Part shown: positions 824 to 7,738 of the stretch, piece after piece
Position numbering within the stretch: the stretch's first letter is position 1
Layout of the letters: each line of letters starts with the position of its first letter
Origin: Candidatus Aenigmatarchaeota archaeon
GTDB taxonomy: Archaea > Aenigmatarchaeota > Aenigmatarchaeia > PWEA01 > JACRMZ01
Direction: 5' to 3'
Assembly (NCBI GenBank): GCA_016219455.1
Contig: JACRMZ010000065.1
Coordinates: 1-7,793, forward strand
DNA length: 7,793 nucleotides
Program-made: the position numbers and the translations under genes
Notes under the pieces: model-generated
Databases searched by the model: none
What the model was told of the DNA's origin: nothing
The model's input: the letters and a program-made list of their open reading frames with translations, nothing else

Positions 824-976
824 ATGGAACAACAAATATGCCCCAAGTGCAAGAGCAGGAACGTGACCCATGACACGTCGCGCCACGCCTACGGGAAAGG
901 AACGTTGTTCAACAGCATGCAATGCAAGGACTGCGGGAATTCGGGGATATTTTTTCCAGCGATTAAAAAAGGATGA
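824..976 (+). CDS. small zinc-ribbon protein (50 aa)
   Basis: ATG at 824 opens a 50-codon frame ending at TGA (974-976). The protein has two zinc knuckles, CPKC at residues 6-9 and CKDCG at 34-38, followed by a hydrophobic GIFFP and a short basic end. Four cysteines in a CxxC-x24-CxxC arrangement are the signature of a zinc ribbon. Its role (nucleic-acid or protein binding) cannot be read from the sequence. The gene starts 3 bp after the pirin stop and ends 1 bp before the ATG of the lipoprotein, so it fills the space between them exactly and is probably co-transcribed. It is easily missed because of its length and because the frame of the next gene is open back to 870 across it. Confidence 0.8.
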   Translation: MEQQICPKCKSRNVTHDTSRHAYGKGTLFNSMQCKDCGNSGIFFPAIKKG

Positions 977-977
977 T

Positions 978-2204
978 ATGATGTCAGGTATCCCAAACAC
1001 ATGCCATTCCAGGTTATCAGCACTCTTTGTTGTATTTATTGTCCTTTCAGCAGGCTGTCTTGGTGTCAGTCGTGAAGGCGCGAAAAGCACGGACAACATA
1101 ACTGCCGGCGGGGAAAACGGCAGGATTGATAATATTCAGAAGCCCAAAAGAATGTTTTCAGGTTCTGATAATGAACCAACGTGCGGCAATGAAACCTTCA
1201 CTGTCCCGCCACTGGAAAAAGGCACATATGACTACATCGACCCGTTGGGTCATCTCAACCCGCCAGACCATACGATACCCACGGACCATATATATTTTAT
1301 GCTGAAAAGAGACTTGCCTCTGGAAGGCGGCCGCGGGACCTCCATTGCAGCAAGCGTCAAGTCTCCCGGGGAGGTTGTAATATATTCTATTTCAGAATCC
1401 TCTTACCTTAAGGATGGCAAAAAGATAAACTCTGACTACTCAATAGAGTTTTCACTGTGCAAAGAAGTGAAGGGTAAGTTTGGCCATGTGTCTGAGCTTT
1501 CGGTTGCATTGAAAAACTTAATTAAAGAAGGCGGAAACTGCAACGAATACCCTATAGGGTCTGTAGGCGACACTGCAAGGATGTGCAGGAGCGACATAAA
1601 GTACAGCGCCAAGGCAGGGGAGGTAATAGGGACTGCCGGCGGAAAGGTTTCTGCCGCTTTGGATATGTGGGTTTTTGATTCACGGATTCCAAATCCCGCA
1701 TTTGCCAATCCGCAAAGGTATCATGCCATATATGCAGTCTGCCCCATCAGCTATTTTTCCAAAGAGGCAACGGAAAAACTTAATTATTTGGGAAGCTATG
1801 CGGGCCCAAGGACAATCGAGCCCCAGTGCGGCGAAATAAATCAGGACAAGAAGGGGACATTGCAGGGAAACTGGTTTTACGGTGACGCAGTCGATGGACC
1901 CGACGGCTGGCCAAAGTCACTTGCGTTGGTGCATGACAATTCCAACCCAATTATGGGTGTCGTTTCCGTTGGCGGTGTCATCTCAAAACCAGGCACTTGG
2001 CATTTCACGCCTGCCCATTCCGGGGAGGTTAACAGGGAATTTGGTGAAGTGACTCCTTCAGAAACTGTTTACTGCTACGAGTCAGAGAAAAGTACGGAAA
2101 GATTCCTCATTCAGCTGGTTGATGAAACTGCCCTGAAGATAGAGAAGCAGGATGGGAAGTGCGGACTGAACGCGTTTGTTGACCCAAAAACATACGAAAG
2201 ATAA
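978..2204 (+). CDS. exported lipoprotein, possible degenerate M23-like (duplicated hybrid motif) fold
   Basis: The 408-residue protein starts with a signal sequence: Arg12, a hydrophobic core (residues 13-23), then the lipobox LSAGC with Cys27 as lipid attachment site, so it should sit on the outer face of the membrane. A polar linker (28-75) follows. The segment with GHLNPPDHTIPTDHIYF, then S-P-G-E-V-V, D-Y-S-I-E-F, FGHVSELS and AGEVIGTAGG resembles the strand order of M23/lysostaphin-like folds. However, the zinc ligands (HxxxD and HxH) are not all recognisable, so it may be a non-catalytic relative; this is inference. The frame is open upstream to 870, but an upstream start would overlap the zinc ribbon and bury the signal peptide, so ATG 978 is chosen. 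ATG 981 is equally possible and is better spaced from the GGATGAT at 971-977. The 3' end is 1 bp from the convergent tRNA. Confidence 0.8.
   Translation: MMSGIPNTCHSRLSALFVVFIVLSAGCLGVSREGAKSTDNITAGGENGRIDNIQKPKRMFSGSDNEPTCGNETFTVPPLEKGTYDYIDPLGHLNPPDHTIPTDHIYFMLKRDLPLEGGRGTSIAASVKSPGEVVIYSISESSYLKDGKKINSDYSIEFSLCKEVKGKFGHVSELSVALKNLIKEGGNCNEYPIGSVGDTARMCRSDIKYSAKAGEVIGTAGGKVSAALDMWVFDSRIPNPAFANPQRYHAIYAVCPISYFSKEATEKLNYLGSYAGPRTIEPQCGEINQDKKGTLQGNWFYGDAVDGPDGWPKSLALVHDNSNPIMGVVSVGGVISKPGTWHFTPAHSGEVNREFGEVTPSETVYCYESEKSTERFLIQLVDETALKIEKQDGKCGLNAFVDPKTYER
2186..2190 (-). terminator. oligo-T run downstream of tRNA-Arg
   Basis: On the minus strand, five consecutive T (complement of 2186-2190) occur 16-20 nt beyond the encoded CCA, after a T-rich TATCTTTCGTATG. 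Archaeal RNA polymerase stops at oligo-T runs, so this may end the tRNA transcript. It lies inside the 3' end of the convergent lipoprotein coding region. Confidence 0.35.
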
Positions 2205-6272: not shown

Positions 6273-6285
6273 TTGAGTGAGAACT

Positions 6286-6714
6286 ATGGAAACGGGATTC
6301 ATTTACGCAACAGGGGCGGCAATTACGTGGGGGTTGGTTTATGCCATAGACCAGAAGATTCTCGCCAACGTCGACCCGCTGACGCTTCTGTTCATTGATT
6401 CAATTATAGTGGCAATTATTATGTTGCCGTTAGTATTTCTCAGCAACGGCTCCATAAGGGACGTGCTTGTTTCGGTGAAAGGCAACTTGACACTCATCGC
6501 CGTTTCCGTTGCTTTGGCGACTCTATCCAGCTTTTTCATTTTTTCGGCCATCAAAAGCCTTGGAGCTGCAACAGCATCCATAATAGAAATTGCGTATCCG
6601 TTTTTTGTCGTGCTGTTCAGTTACGTTCTTTTCCGTTACACCCCGAACATATACTTCTTTATCGGCGGAACGCTGGTTTTTATTGGCTCAATTATAATCA
6701 TCAAGTTCGCTTAG
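6286..6714 (+). CDS. half-size EamA/DMT-type membrane protein
   Basis: The 142-residue, highly hydrophobic protein has five predicted membrane segments (about 4-24, 32-51, 66-87, 94-114 and 120-139). The first contains the GAAITWGLVYAIDQK pattern typical of EamA domains of the drug/metabolite transporter superfamily, and the fourth contains IIEIAYPFFVVLFSYVLF. Most EamA transporters have two such domains (10 segments). This has one and so probably works as a dimer, like ancestral single-domain forms; the substrate is unknown. An in-frame GTG at 6277 is possible, but ATG 6286 is preferred because it is followed at once by the first helix and preceded by GAGTGAG. It is probably co-transcribed with glyS, since only 13 bp separate them and no TATA box lies between. 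Confidence 0.8.
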   Translation: METGFIYATGAAITWGLVYAIDQKILANVDPLTLLFIDSIIVAIIMLPLVFLSNGSIRDVLVSVKGNLTLIAVSVALATLSSFFIFSAIKSLGAATASIIEIAYPFFVVLFSYVLFRYTPNIYFFIGGTLVFIGSIIIIKFA

Positions 6715-6756
6715 GAAAACTGGTTGCGCAAGGTGGATAGACAGCGCACTAATGAC

Positions 6757-6813
6757 GATACGTTTAAATATCACTTGATACTATAAGTTATCACATGATA
6801 CGAAAAGATATCA
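6757..6813 (+). repeat. 20-bp-periodic palindromic operator array at the MNT/HEPN promoter
   Basis: Two perfect interrupted palindromes, TATCACTTGATA (6769-6780) and TATCACATGATA (6789-6800), have centres exactly 20 bp apart. Their 20-bp units (6769-6788 and 6789-6808) agree at 16 of 20 positions. The half-site GATAC also occurs in phase at 6757, 6777 and 6797, and TATCA at 6769, 6789 and 6809. The first palindrome overlaps the last two bases of the TATA box and the second encloses the ATG at 6795. Binding here should block promoter access, so this is a likely operator array. The HTH domain of the gene it precedes is the natural candidate ligand (inference). Confidence 0.75.
6763..6770 (+). 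promoter_or_regulatory. TATA box of the MNT/HEPN operon
   Basis: TTTAAATA is centred 28.5 bp before the ATG at 6795, so the predicted leader is 0-4 nt and the gene has no upstream ribosome site. The box shares its last two bases with the first operator palindrome, which would couple operator occupancy to TBP access. Confidence 0.75.
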
Positions 6814-7316
6814 AGAATCTCATCCAAAGGGAGTTTTTTGACCGCCCTGCCAAGAAGTTCCAATTGAGGGAATTGGCAAGGGCTCTGAAGGTAGGGCTCC
6901 CCACAGCCAAAAGGGCCGTAGAAAGGCTTGCAAAGGAAGGCATTGTGGAGAGGGGGACAAATGGCATATATCCCTATTACACGGCTAGCAGGACAGAAGC
7001 ATATTCCATCCGCAGGCGTCTGGACGTCCAGCTAAGGCTTCAGGAGTCGGGGCTGATAGAATATCTTGTGGAAAAACTCACCCCTGATGCCATAGTGCTC
7101 TTTGGCTCAGCCTCCCGTGGAGAGGACGTAGAGACGAGTGACATAGACCTTTTTGTAGTCTCTTCGGAAAAGGAGCTTGAGACAGCGGCATTCGAGAGGC
7201 AGCTTAAGAGGAAAATACATATGATCTTTGAGCCATATCCAAAAAAGGCGCCTAAAGAACTTCTCAACAACGTGATAAACGGGATAGTCGTCTATGGTTA
7301 CCTGAAGGTGCTGTGA
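6795..7316 (+). CDS. HTH-fused minimal nucleotidyltransferase (MNT), antitoxin-like
   Basis: The 173-residue protein has two domains. Residues about 1-75 form a winged helix-turn-helix (QLRELARALKVGLPTAKRAVERLAKEGIVER), expected to bind DNA. Residues about 85-173 are a minimal nucleotidyltransferase with FGSASRGEDVETSDIDLFVV. Gly104-Ser105 followed by 10 residues and then Asp116-x-Asp118 is the GSX10DXD signature of MntA-type enzymes, which AMPylate HEPN partners. The usual third acidic residue is not obvious in the following strand (KIHMIFE). It ends with NGIVVYGYL, a pattern I recall from archaeal HTH-MNT proteins. In HEPN/MNT modules this protein acts as the antitoxin; the fused HTH suggests it also represses the operon through the palindromes at its promoter (inference). 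Its stop overlaps the HEPN start codon. Confidence 0.88.
   Translation: MIRKDIKNLIQREFFDRPAKKFQLRELARALKVGLPTAKRAVERLAKEGIVERGTNGIYPYYTASRTEAYSIRRRLDVQLRLQESGLIEYLVEKLTPDAIVLFGSASRGEDVETSDIDLFVVSSEKELETAAFERQLKRKIHMIFEPYPKKAPKELLNNVINGIVVYGYLKVL
7305..7310 (+). promoter_or_regulatory. ribosome binding site for the HEPN gene
   Basis: AAGGTG lies 5 nt before ATG 7316, inside the last codons of the MNT gene. The spacing favours ATG 7316 over the in-frame GTG at 7313, only 2 nt away, and supports translational coupling through the TGATG overlap. Confidence 0.55.
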
Positions 7317-7738
7317 TGAAGAGTTGGAAAGAGTCTGCTGAAGAAGTAAGAAGAGTAAGGCCAGACAAGGAGATGGCGGCGTCTCTGTTGAAGATGATGG
7401 AAATGAGGCTGAAAGCCATCGAAAGCTTGGACGCTGAAAAGTTCCCCCCTTTGGTCATTGAAGGATATTATGAGGTCATGAAAGAGGCGATAACTGCCCT
7501 TATGGCGGTAGACGGCTACAAGACGCTAAGCCACGAGGCACTTGTCGCATATCTTAATGAGCATTATCACGAGTTTTCTGATTCTGAGATGCACCTCATT
7601 GATCAGTTAAGGCAGCTCAGGAACAGTATCATATACAAAGGGCTCTTCGTAGGAGCAGACTATATTGAGAGGAATGGAGACATCATATCAGGGATAATAG
7701 AAAAGCTAAAGTCAGCAATAAAAAGGAAACTTAGATAG
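7316..7738 (+). CDS. HEPN-domain protein, partner of the MNT (toxin-like, variant active site)
   Basis: The 140-residue all-helical protein fits the HEPN fold: a long helix with MEMRLKAIESLDAEKFPPLVIEGYYEVMKEAITALM (about 28-64) and a later helix with LIDQLRQLRNSIIYKG. HEPN RNases carry Rx4-6H, in HepT the form RNxxxHxY. Here Arg102-Asn103 is present but the His position is Tyr107, and no other His falls in register. The protein may therefore be a non-nucleolytic HEPN, for example a binding or regulatory partner, or it may use another residue. The TGATG overlap with the MNT gene indicates one transcript and balanced production. GTG 7313 is an alternative start. Fold and pairing are well supported; toxicity is not shown. 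Confidence 0.82.
   Translation: MKSWKESAEEVRRVRPDKEMAASLLKMMEMRLKAIESLDAEKFPPLVIEGYYEVMKEAITALMAVDGYKTLSHEALVAYLNEHYHEFSDSEMHLIDQLRQLRNSIIYKGLFVGADYIERNGDIISGIIEKLKSAIKRKLR

Follow-up and report, generated by a model that had tools for sequence, protein, structure and literature searches.

A predicted operator array of three phased palindromes spanning the promoter and first codons of an archaeal HTH-MNT/HEPN-like operon

The window, a complete stretch of 7,793 nucleotides from a Candidatus Aenigmatarchaeota archaeon, carries two overlapping plus-strand genes near its end. The first (6795–7316) encodes a 173-amino acid protein comprising a winged helix-turn-helix (HTH) and a minimal nucleotidyltransferase (MNT) with the motif GSX10DXD. 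The nucleotidyltransferase domain (Polbeta; 7053–7295, plus strand, residues 87–167) was matched by Pfam above cut-off and its motif residues G104, S105, D116 and D118 are invariant in 34 of 34 aligned sequences, and the winged HTH matched several Pfam HTH families, all below cut-off. An AlphaFold model of the protein (pLDDT 91.2) contains helices at residues 3–16, 24–31 and 35–47 and strands at residues 51–54 and 61–64, and by the usual succession of elements in a winged HTH the helix at 35–47 (6897–6935, plus strand) is presumed to be the recognition helix. Its first residue, residue 35, is Leu in the window and shows the strongest coupling of any column to the operator word described below. 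At the protein level, conservation extends to N-terminal residues such as MIQNY/MLQKY. Scores against two antitoxin models were under cut-off, at 29.6 bits for NCBIfam MntA_antitoxin (cut-off 60) and 16.3 bits for AbiEi (cut-off 150).

The ATG of the partner gene (7316–7738, plus strand, 140 amino acids) overlaps the stop codon of the HTH-MNT gene. Amongst loci of relatives with enough downstream sequence, a partner HMM recognized an open reading frame at 99 of 112 loci in the close set and 48 of 58 in the distant set, its start lying between −40 and +150 nt relative to the HTH-MNT stop codon and mostly at −4 to +1. No Pfam family matched the window's partner protein above cut-off, and two of 25 relatives matched PF05168 (best E-value 0.00099). 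The AlphaFold model of the partner (pLDDT 95.7) predicts a HEPN fold, with HEPN protein 2hsb as the best PDB match (TMq 0.72, probability 1.00, E-value 4.7e-3) and no match at E ≤ 0.001 in that search of the PDB. The first-pass annotation had named this product HEPN; the modelled fold agrees with that name, but the Rx4-6H RNase motif is not present and RNx3Y (R102-N103-Y107) stands in place of Rx4H. Where the RNase His would be expected, the window's protein has a Tyr, as do 138 of 141 ungapped rows, with one row having His (a further 6 of the 147 rows were gapped). The partner is possibly inactive as an RNase, or the Tyr is possibly a site of AMPylation, and because the Tyr replaces the Rx4H histidine the description of the partner as an RNase toxin is unproven.

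Upstream of and extending into the HTH-MNT gene is a 58-bp element at 6756–6813 consisting of three palindromes of the form TGATA-N8-TATCA, each of 18 bp and none with a strand, with centres at 6764.5, 6784.5 and 6804.5 and hence a spacing of 20 bp. Unit 1 (6756–6773) is made up of half-sites H1 (CGATA, 6756–6760), whose first letter is the sole mismatch of the six half-sites, and H2 (TATCA, 6769–6773), unit 2 (6776–6793) of H3 (TGATA, 6776–6780) and H4 (TATCA, 6789–6793), and unit 3 (6796–6813) of H5 (TGATA, 6796–6800) and H6 (TATCA, 6809–6813). Unit 3 lies within codons 1–7 of the HTH-MNT gene (ATG ATA CGA AAA GAT ATC AAG). A predicted archaeal TATA box, TTTAAATA (6763–6770, plus strand, −32 to −25 from the start codon), overlaps the N8 spacer and H2 of unit 1, and the family consensus derived from 81 sequences has TTTATATA at the same place. 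By the archaeal rule for the spacing between TATA box and transcription start, this position would place the start of the transcript at or near the ATG, giving a leaderless or near-leaderless mRNA. A candidate sigma-70 promoter was rejected, as the scan, unsuited to archaea, returned one weak site on the opposite strand and such sites were no commoner than in shuffles. The six half-sites are in exact phase with 29 of 30 letters matched, and the 20-letter core matches at 20 of 20. The best scores obtained from 2,000 dinucleotide shuffles of 6595–6894 were 15 for the core and 20 for the six-half-site array, and from 60 shuffles of the whole window 15 and 19, respectively. Taken singly, the palindrome is unremarkable: at two mismatches or fewer, the window contains 4 copies where 2.67 would be expected.

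To characterize conservation of the element, the best 80 of 160 relatives found in contigs from one genome per species were aligned with the window at the start codon (n = 81). Information per position was 0.01–0.03 bits at −50 to −47, 0.11–0.29 bits at −46 to −42 and 0.68 bits for an A at −41, and a conserved block, high at most positions, extended from about −39 to +19, with 0.04 bits at +20. Unit 1 corresponds to the conserved columns −39 to −22, and the single conserved positions past the block (+22, +29 and +32) look like conserved codons. The consensus of the block is [CT]GNNA-N8-TANCA-N2-TGNNA-N8-TNNCA-N2-TGNTA-N8-TANCA. The half-site word varies by locus (TGATA, TGTNA, TGCTA or TGAGA), and the units of one locus tend to share it. 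The set was then enlarged with 60 more regions, 205 source records yielding 202 hits with a start codon and, after duplicate removal, 175 loci, of which 114 were close (E below 1e-38) and 61 distant. Matches were scored over 15 skeleton letters (the T, G and A of five half-sites, H5 being omitted owing to the ATG). At least 12 were present in the same phase at 87 of the 114 close loci, with the other 27 below this threshold, compared with none in 20 rounds of composition shuffles; comparable arrays thus occur in most close relatives, the opposite of the palindrome-free orthologous promoters that would have counted against the first-pass reading. The threshold was reached at 8 of the 61 distant loci. 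When arrays were slid by +20 or −20 bp, 70 and 12 of the 114 close loci, respectively, still reached 12, because the array is periodic and such slides keep four and three of the five half-sites scored; each of the 11 remaining slides gave 0. Amongst the N8 dyads of the distant loci, that of unit 2 again had the highest complementarity (55%; mean 32%, sd 6; n = 61).

Relatives (E ≤ 1e-12) were contained in 73 of 156 genomes of the window's phylum. Named homologues amongst the matches listed were mostly from Aenigmarchaeota and other DPANN archaea, with Methanoperedens and a few others, and none was from a cultured species amongst the matches listed (best 120 of 555, 75, best 80 of 160 and best 120 of 1701). 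A locus titled Parcubacteria group bacterium (L089) has both gene and array. Two pattern matches were observed in viral contigs, neither of them a relative, and a search of plasmids with the protein of locus L098 identified no relatives. Several distant subfamilies carry other words in the same phase, such as TGTTTA/TAAACA with ATGTTC...TTAAACA at locus L176, and in the distant MYKLKLT subfamily of HTH-MNT proteins (L194, L190, L178 and similar) repeats of the AGTTAA-N6-TTAACT type are present in a different register around the start codon.

Dyad centres recur every 10 bp in the close set, with N8 and N2 dyads alternating, so the same letters can be read in two ways. Complementarity was 82% for the N8 dyads at −10.5 and +9.5 and 59% for the N8 dyad of unit 1, and 80% and 72% for the N2 dyads at −0.5 and −20.5, compared with a mean over all positions of 30% (sd 12; n = 114). 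Compared with shuffles that ignore kinship (n = 81), agreement of the middle dinucleotide between the halves of N8 pairs was 41/81 for H3–H4 (shuffled 14.6, z 8.2), 45/81 for H5–H6 (shuffled 27.2, z 5.5) and only 20/81 for H1–H2 (shuffled 16.0, z 1.4), and between those of N2 pairs 26/81 for H2–H3 (shuffled 18.9, z 2.1) and 22/81 for H4–H5 (shuffled 12.8, z 3.3). Unit 2 is the unit with the best agreement between halves relative to shuffles. The middle base alone gave no separation of N8 pairs (z 7.8 for H3–H4, 6.1 for H5–H6 and 2.3 for H1–H2) from N2 pairs (z 6.4 for H2–H3 and 5.9 for H4–H5). Over 94 nearest-neighbour pairs, the frequency with which the second half differed given that the first differed was 0.66 for H3–H4, 0.65 for H1–H2 and 0.43 for H5–H6 (N8), and 0.42 for H4–H5 and 0.55 for H2–H3 (N2); given that the first was the same, it was 0.21–0.29 for all pairs. 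These comparisons favour, with moderate confidence, the N8 palindrome as the physical unit, the N2 reading being a description of the same letters. The first-pass annotation had reported two TATCA-NN-TGATA palindromes with outer half-sites that might be due to chance. The two palindromes are exact at 6769–6780 and 6789–6800 (centres 6774.5 and 6794.5, 20 bp apart) and the outer half-sites, GATAC (6757) and TATCA (6809), occur in phase with them. The letters and the 20-bp phase of that layout therefore stand, but three copies of TGATA-N8-TATCA are likelier than two of TATCA-N2-TGATA plus spare halves, and the outer half-sites cannot be put down to chance because relatives conserve them as H1 and H6, completing units 1 and 3. 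The copy at 6809 does lie inside coding sequence, as had been noted, but is a conserved feature in relatives rather than a doubtful one.

To relate the operator word to the protein, word class was defined as the middle base common to both unit-2 halves and was assigned at 81 of the 114 close loci (46 T, 29 A and 6 C), the class test omitting the other 33 (17 mixed, 15 without the skeleton and 1 G-type). Residue 35 was the most informative on the word amongst the 173 columns, with 1.07 of 1.27 bits compared with 0.75 for the next column. With residue groups picked after the table was seen, L/M/V was present at 27 of 29 A-type loci, P/T/H/A at 45 of 46 T-type loci and Q at 6 of 6 C-type loci. 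Exceptions were the A-type loci L031 and L059 with Pro35 and the T-type locus L079 with Leu35, and amongst the omitted loci with Gln35, L077 and L113 have no C word in unit 2 and L057, L062 and L106 have a C word in one half. Word class changes 10 times on a tree built from the MNT domain only. When labels were simulated on this tree and kept if class sizes were similar and changes numbered 8–13, 0 of 1000 reached the value for residue 35 (maximum 0.78 bits). Amongst the 13 columns tried, residues 6 and 39 were likewise matched by 0 of 1000 and residues 13, 57 and 157 by 1, so that residue 35 stands out by size but not alone. Supported independent contrasts of A against the rest numbered only three (two agreeing, none opposing and one showing no difference; 0.4–1.5 agreeing for the control columns listed) and so cannot be significant, kinship limiting the statistics.

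A natural switch is provided by locus L063 compared with L068, L073 and L076. Within residues 31–47 the proteins differ from that of L063 at 9 of 17 residues each, compared with 0, 1 and 1, respectively, of the 23 residues at 8–30 and 13, 11 and 11 of 94 in the MNT domain, which is 88% identical between L063 and L073. Residues 48–79 also differ (9, 10 and 5 of 32), so the change extends beyond the helix. In unit 2, L063 reads TGCAA..TTGCA, L073 reads TGAGA..TCTCA, and L068 and L076 have mixed words, whilst H2 is TAGCA in L063, TATCA in L068 and L073 and TACCA in L076, and H5 is TGATA in all four. Paralogues within one genome, read from a hand-made subset, often have different words (genome G039 and most copies in G116), although a unit-2 word is common to L147/L150 (G104) and L136/L179 (G116) and nearly so to L013/L031 (G023). 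Genome G116 (approximately 1.1 Mb) has nine HTH-MNT matches at E ≤ 1e-12 (for example L136, L151, L159 and L179) and several operator words. With such pairs of operator and helix, the L063/L073 switch included, specificity can be put to a direct test.

That the half-site word goes with the predicted recognition helix of the protein encoded at the same locus supports the first-pass proposal that the antitoxin may be its own repressor, and favours self-regulation over a separate regulator. An array serving a different, trans-acting regulator of many genes, with the HTH acting elsewhere or in protein contacts only, would be in keeping with PMC2701414, where it was suggested that MNT-HEPN may rely on a DNA-binding component supplied in trans. 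This alternative is unlikely, as the word tracks the helix of the downstream gene's own product, several paralogues of one genome have different words, and at up to three mismatches the sole match to two consecutive units in the window's assembly (866 kb, 65% complete) was the window's array itself. No regulon beyond the operon was indicated in that assembly by a second array, and outside the operon only single-palindrome near-matches were observed, at roughly the control rate.

Unit 3 is written in codons and is more palindromic than its peptide demands. It forms a perfect palindrome at 51 of the 114 close loci compared with a mean of 3.8 and a maximum of 10 in 500 synonymous-codon redraws, and mean matches were 4.12 of 5 against a null of 2.56 (sd 0.083), falling to 0.75–2.25 when the partner half was slid by 1–3 bases. 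Where codon 2 encodes Ile it is ATA in 32 of 32 cases, compared with 47% at residues ≥11 of the same genes, and where it encodes Leu (n = 69) it is TTA in 54 and CTA in 12, compared with 20% and 9% elsewhere in the same genes. Similarly, at codon 6, Asn is encoded by AAC in 56 of 63 cases (43% elsewhere), Ser by AGC in 18 of 26 (24%), Thr by ACC in 11 of 11 (18%) and Ile by ATC in 10 of 10 (20%). Judged by these frequencies, the spelling of codons 2 and 6 serves the palindrome and not the usual codon preference of these genes. TGTAA is barred at H5 because ATG-TAA would contain a stop codon, and TGTTA fills both H5 and H6 at 30 of the 46 T-type loci. At a single locus, L010 (= L085), the called start codon is approximately 27 nt further downstream, the third unit is noncoding and TGTAA is present in place of H5. 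The family suggests that binding sites can shape the peptides of the repressors that recognize them.

These data also bear on whether the block could be merely an archaeal promoter followed by a conserved N-terminal peptide, with the palindromes incidental. Both a TATA consensus inside the block and the N-terminal residues conserved in the protein would be explained in this way, but such an origin is very improbable given that H1, H3 and H4 are conserved though they overlap neither the TATA box nor the codons, that the noncoding H3 and the coding H5 have the same middle base in 63 of 81 sequences (shuffled 32.0), and that codons 2 and 6 depart from the codon usage of the genes themselves, with perfect palindromes exceeding all 500 redraws. 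Least credible of all is that unit 3, an inverted repeat in the first 19 nt of the gene, folds into a hairpin in the RNA and, at the 5′ end of a leaderless transcript, controls translation, since the first 46 nt in the window fold no better than shuffles (z 0.49, one sequence), units 1 and 2 have the same layout upstream of the likely transcript, and no Rfam family was present at gathering score in this region.

Operator-like sites are located over the promoter of an operon whose first product contains a DNA-binding domain, both promoter and domain being predicted. The reading preferred here, with a probability of roughly 0.8, is that the 58-bp array is an operator at which dimers of the same HTH-MNT protein repress the HTH-MNT/HEPN-like operon. 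HTH-MNT dimers would bind on one face of the DNA, one per 18-bp unit, the 20-bp spacing making cooperation between dimers on the same face probable. Occupancy of unit 1 would exclude TBP/TFB, and units 2 and 3 would block polymerase at the leaderless start. Repression might ease when the HTH-MNT protein is titrated or changed, by the partner or by nucleotidylation, and different words amongst the paralogues of one cell would reduce cross-regulation. A broader proposal has somewhat better than even odds, namely that archaeal HTH-MNT regulators have private, self-addressed operators with the last third in their own first seven codons, that helix, word and N-terminal amino acids evolve as one cassette, and that paralogous modules in one small genome hold separate addresses, each repressing only itself.

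Autoregulation of MNT/HEPN operons is already known, and what is supported as new by the present sequence comparisons is an operator situated partly in the regulator's own codons. The published accounts are compared here as far as the passages cited extend. The Shewanella MNT antitoxin (SO_3166/SO_3165, HepT/MntA) binds its own promoter (PMC4621449), and the window's operon resembles this type VII, Class I HEPN/MNT system in having two genes, MNT then HEPN, and an MNT with GSX10DXD (PMC4621449; PMC7641770). However, the Shewanella antitoxin has no predicted DNA-binding domain whereas the MNT here carries a fused winged HTH, the Shewanella promoter has two palindromes unlike each other rather than three phased units reaching into codons, and the Shewanella HEPN protein has the RX4HXY motif that the window's partner lacks. 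Closer in this last respect are Class II HEPN/MNT systems (PF05168/PF01909), commoner than Class I in archaea, with GSX10DXD in the MNT and a conserved tyrosine without the RX4H RNase motif; the account of them in section 22 of PMC7641770 includes neither HTH fusion nor operator, both of which are predicted here. Models of the PADLOC candidate PDC-M05 match both window proteins (M05A nucleotidyltransferase, 1.2e-15; M05B HEPN, 6.4e-6). Of detected instances of PDC-M05, 59% are archaeal and an antiviral role is unconfirmed (PMC12988326); it is defined there by proteins alone with no operator described, in contrast to the array predicted here.

A likeness in regulation is seen with the AbiEi antitoxins of type IV AbiE systems, which are two-domain proteins autorepressing at promoter inverted repeats (PMC7319586), as is predicted here. 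AbiEi has one pair of inverted repeats and Rv2827c two, with positive or negative cooperativity (PMC7319586). The AbiE repeats are of 23 bp, and those of Rv2827c fall within −1 to −131 relative to the start codon whereas the third unit described here is in coding sequence. The nucleotidyltransferase is in the toxin in AbiE (PMC7319586) but in the regulator here. PMC2701414 describes MNT-HEPN as the most widespread mobile two-gene module of its class and leaves its regulation open; taking HEPN for the antitoxin, its authors doubted that it regulates transcription and suggested that DNA binding is provided in trans. For a large archaeal branch, a predicted DNA-binding domain is instead fused in cis with its likely target sequence alongside. 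No earlier report of this operator was present amongst the best-ranked matches in open-access papers, subscription papers being mostly outside the search.

Elsewhere in the window, an open frame of 444 amino acids (870–2204, plus strand) had no match in Pfam (E ≤ 0.01) or NCBIfam (E ≤ 0.1). On the minus strand at 2209–2324 a tRNA was identified by Rfam at 38.2 bits (gathering score 29) but was not reported by ARAGORN as run; its 116 bases compared with the 71-position model suggest an intron. Finally, a gene at 6277–6714 (plus strand) encodes a protein of 142–145 amino acids with a single EamA domain, whereas the usual EamA transporter is a two-domain protein, twice the single-domain form.
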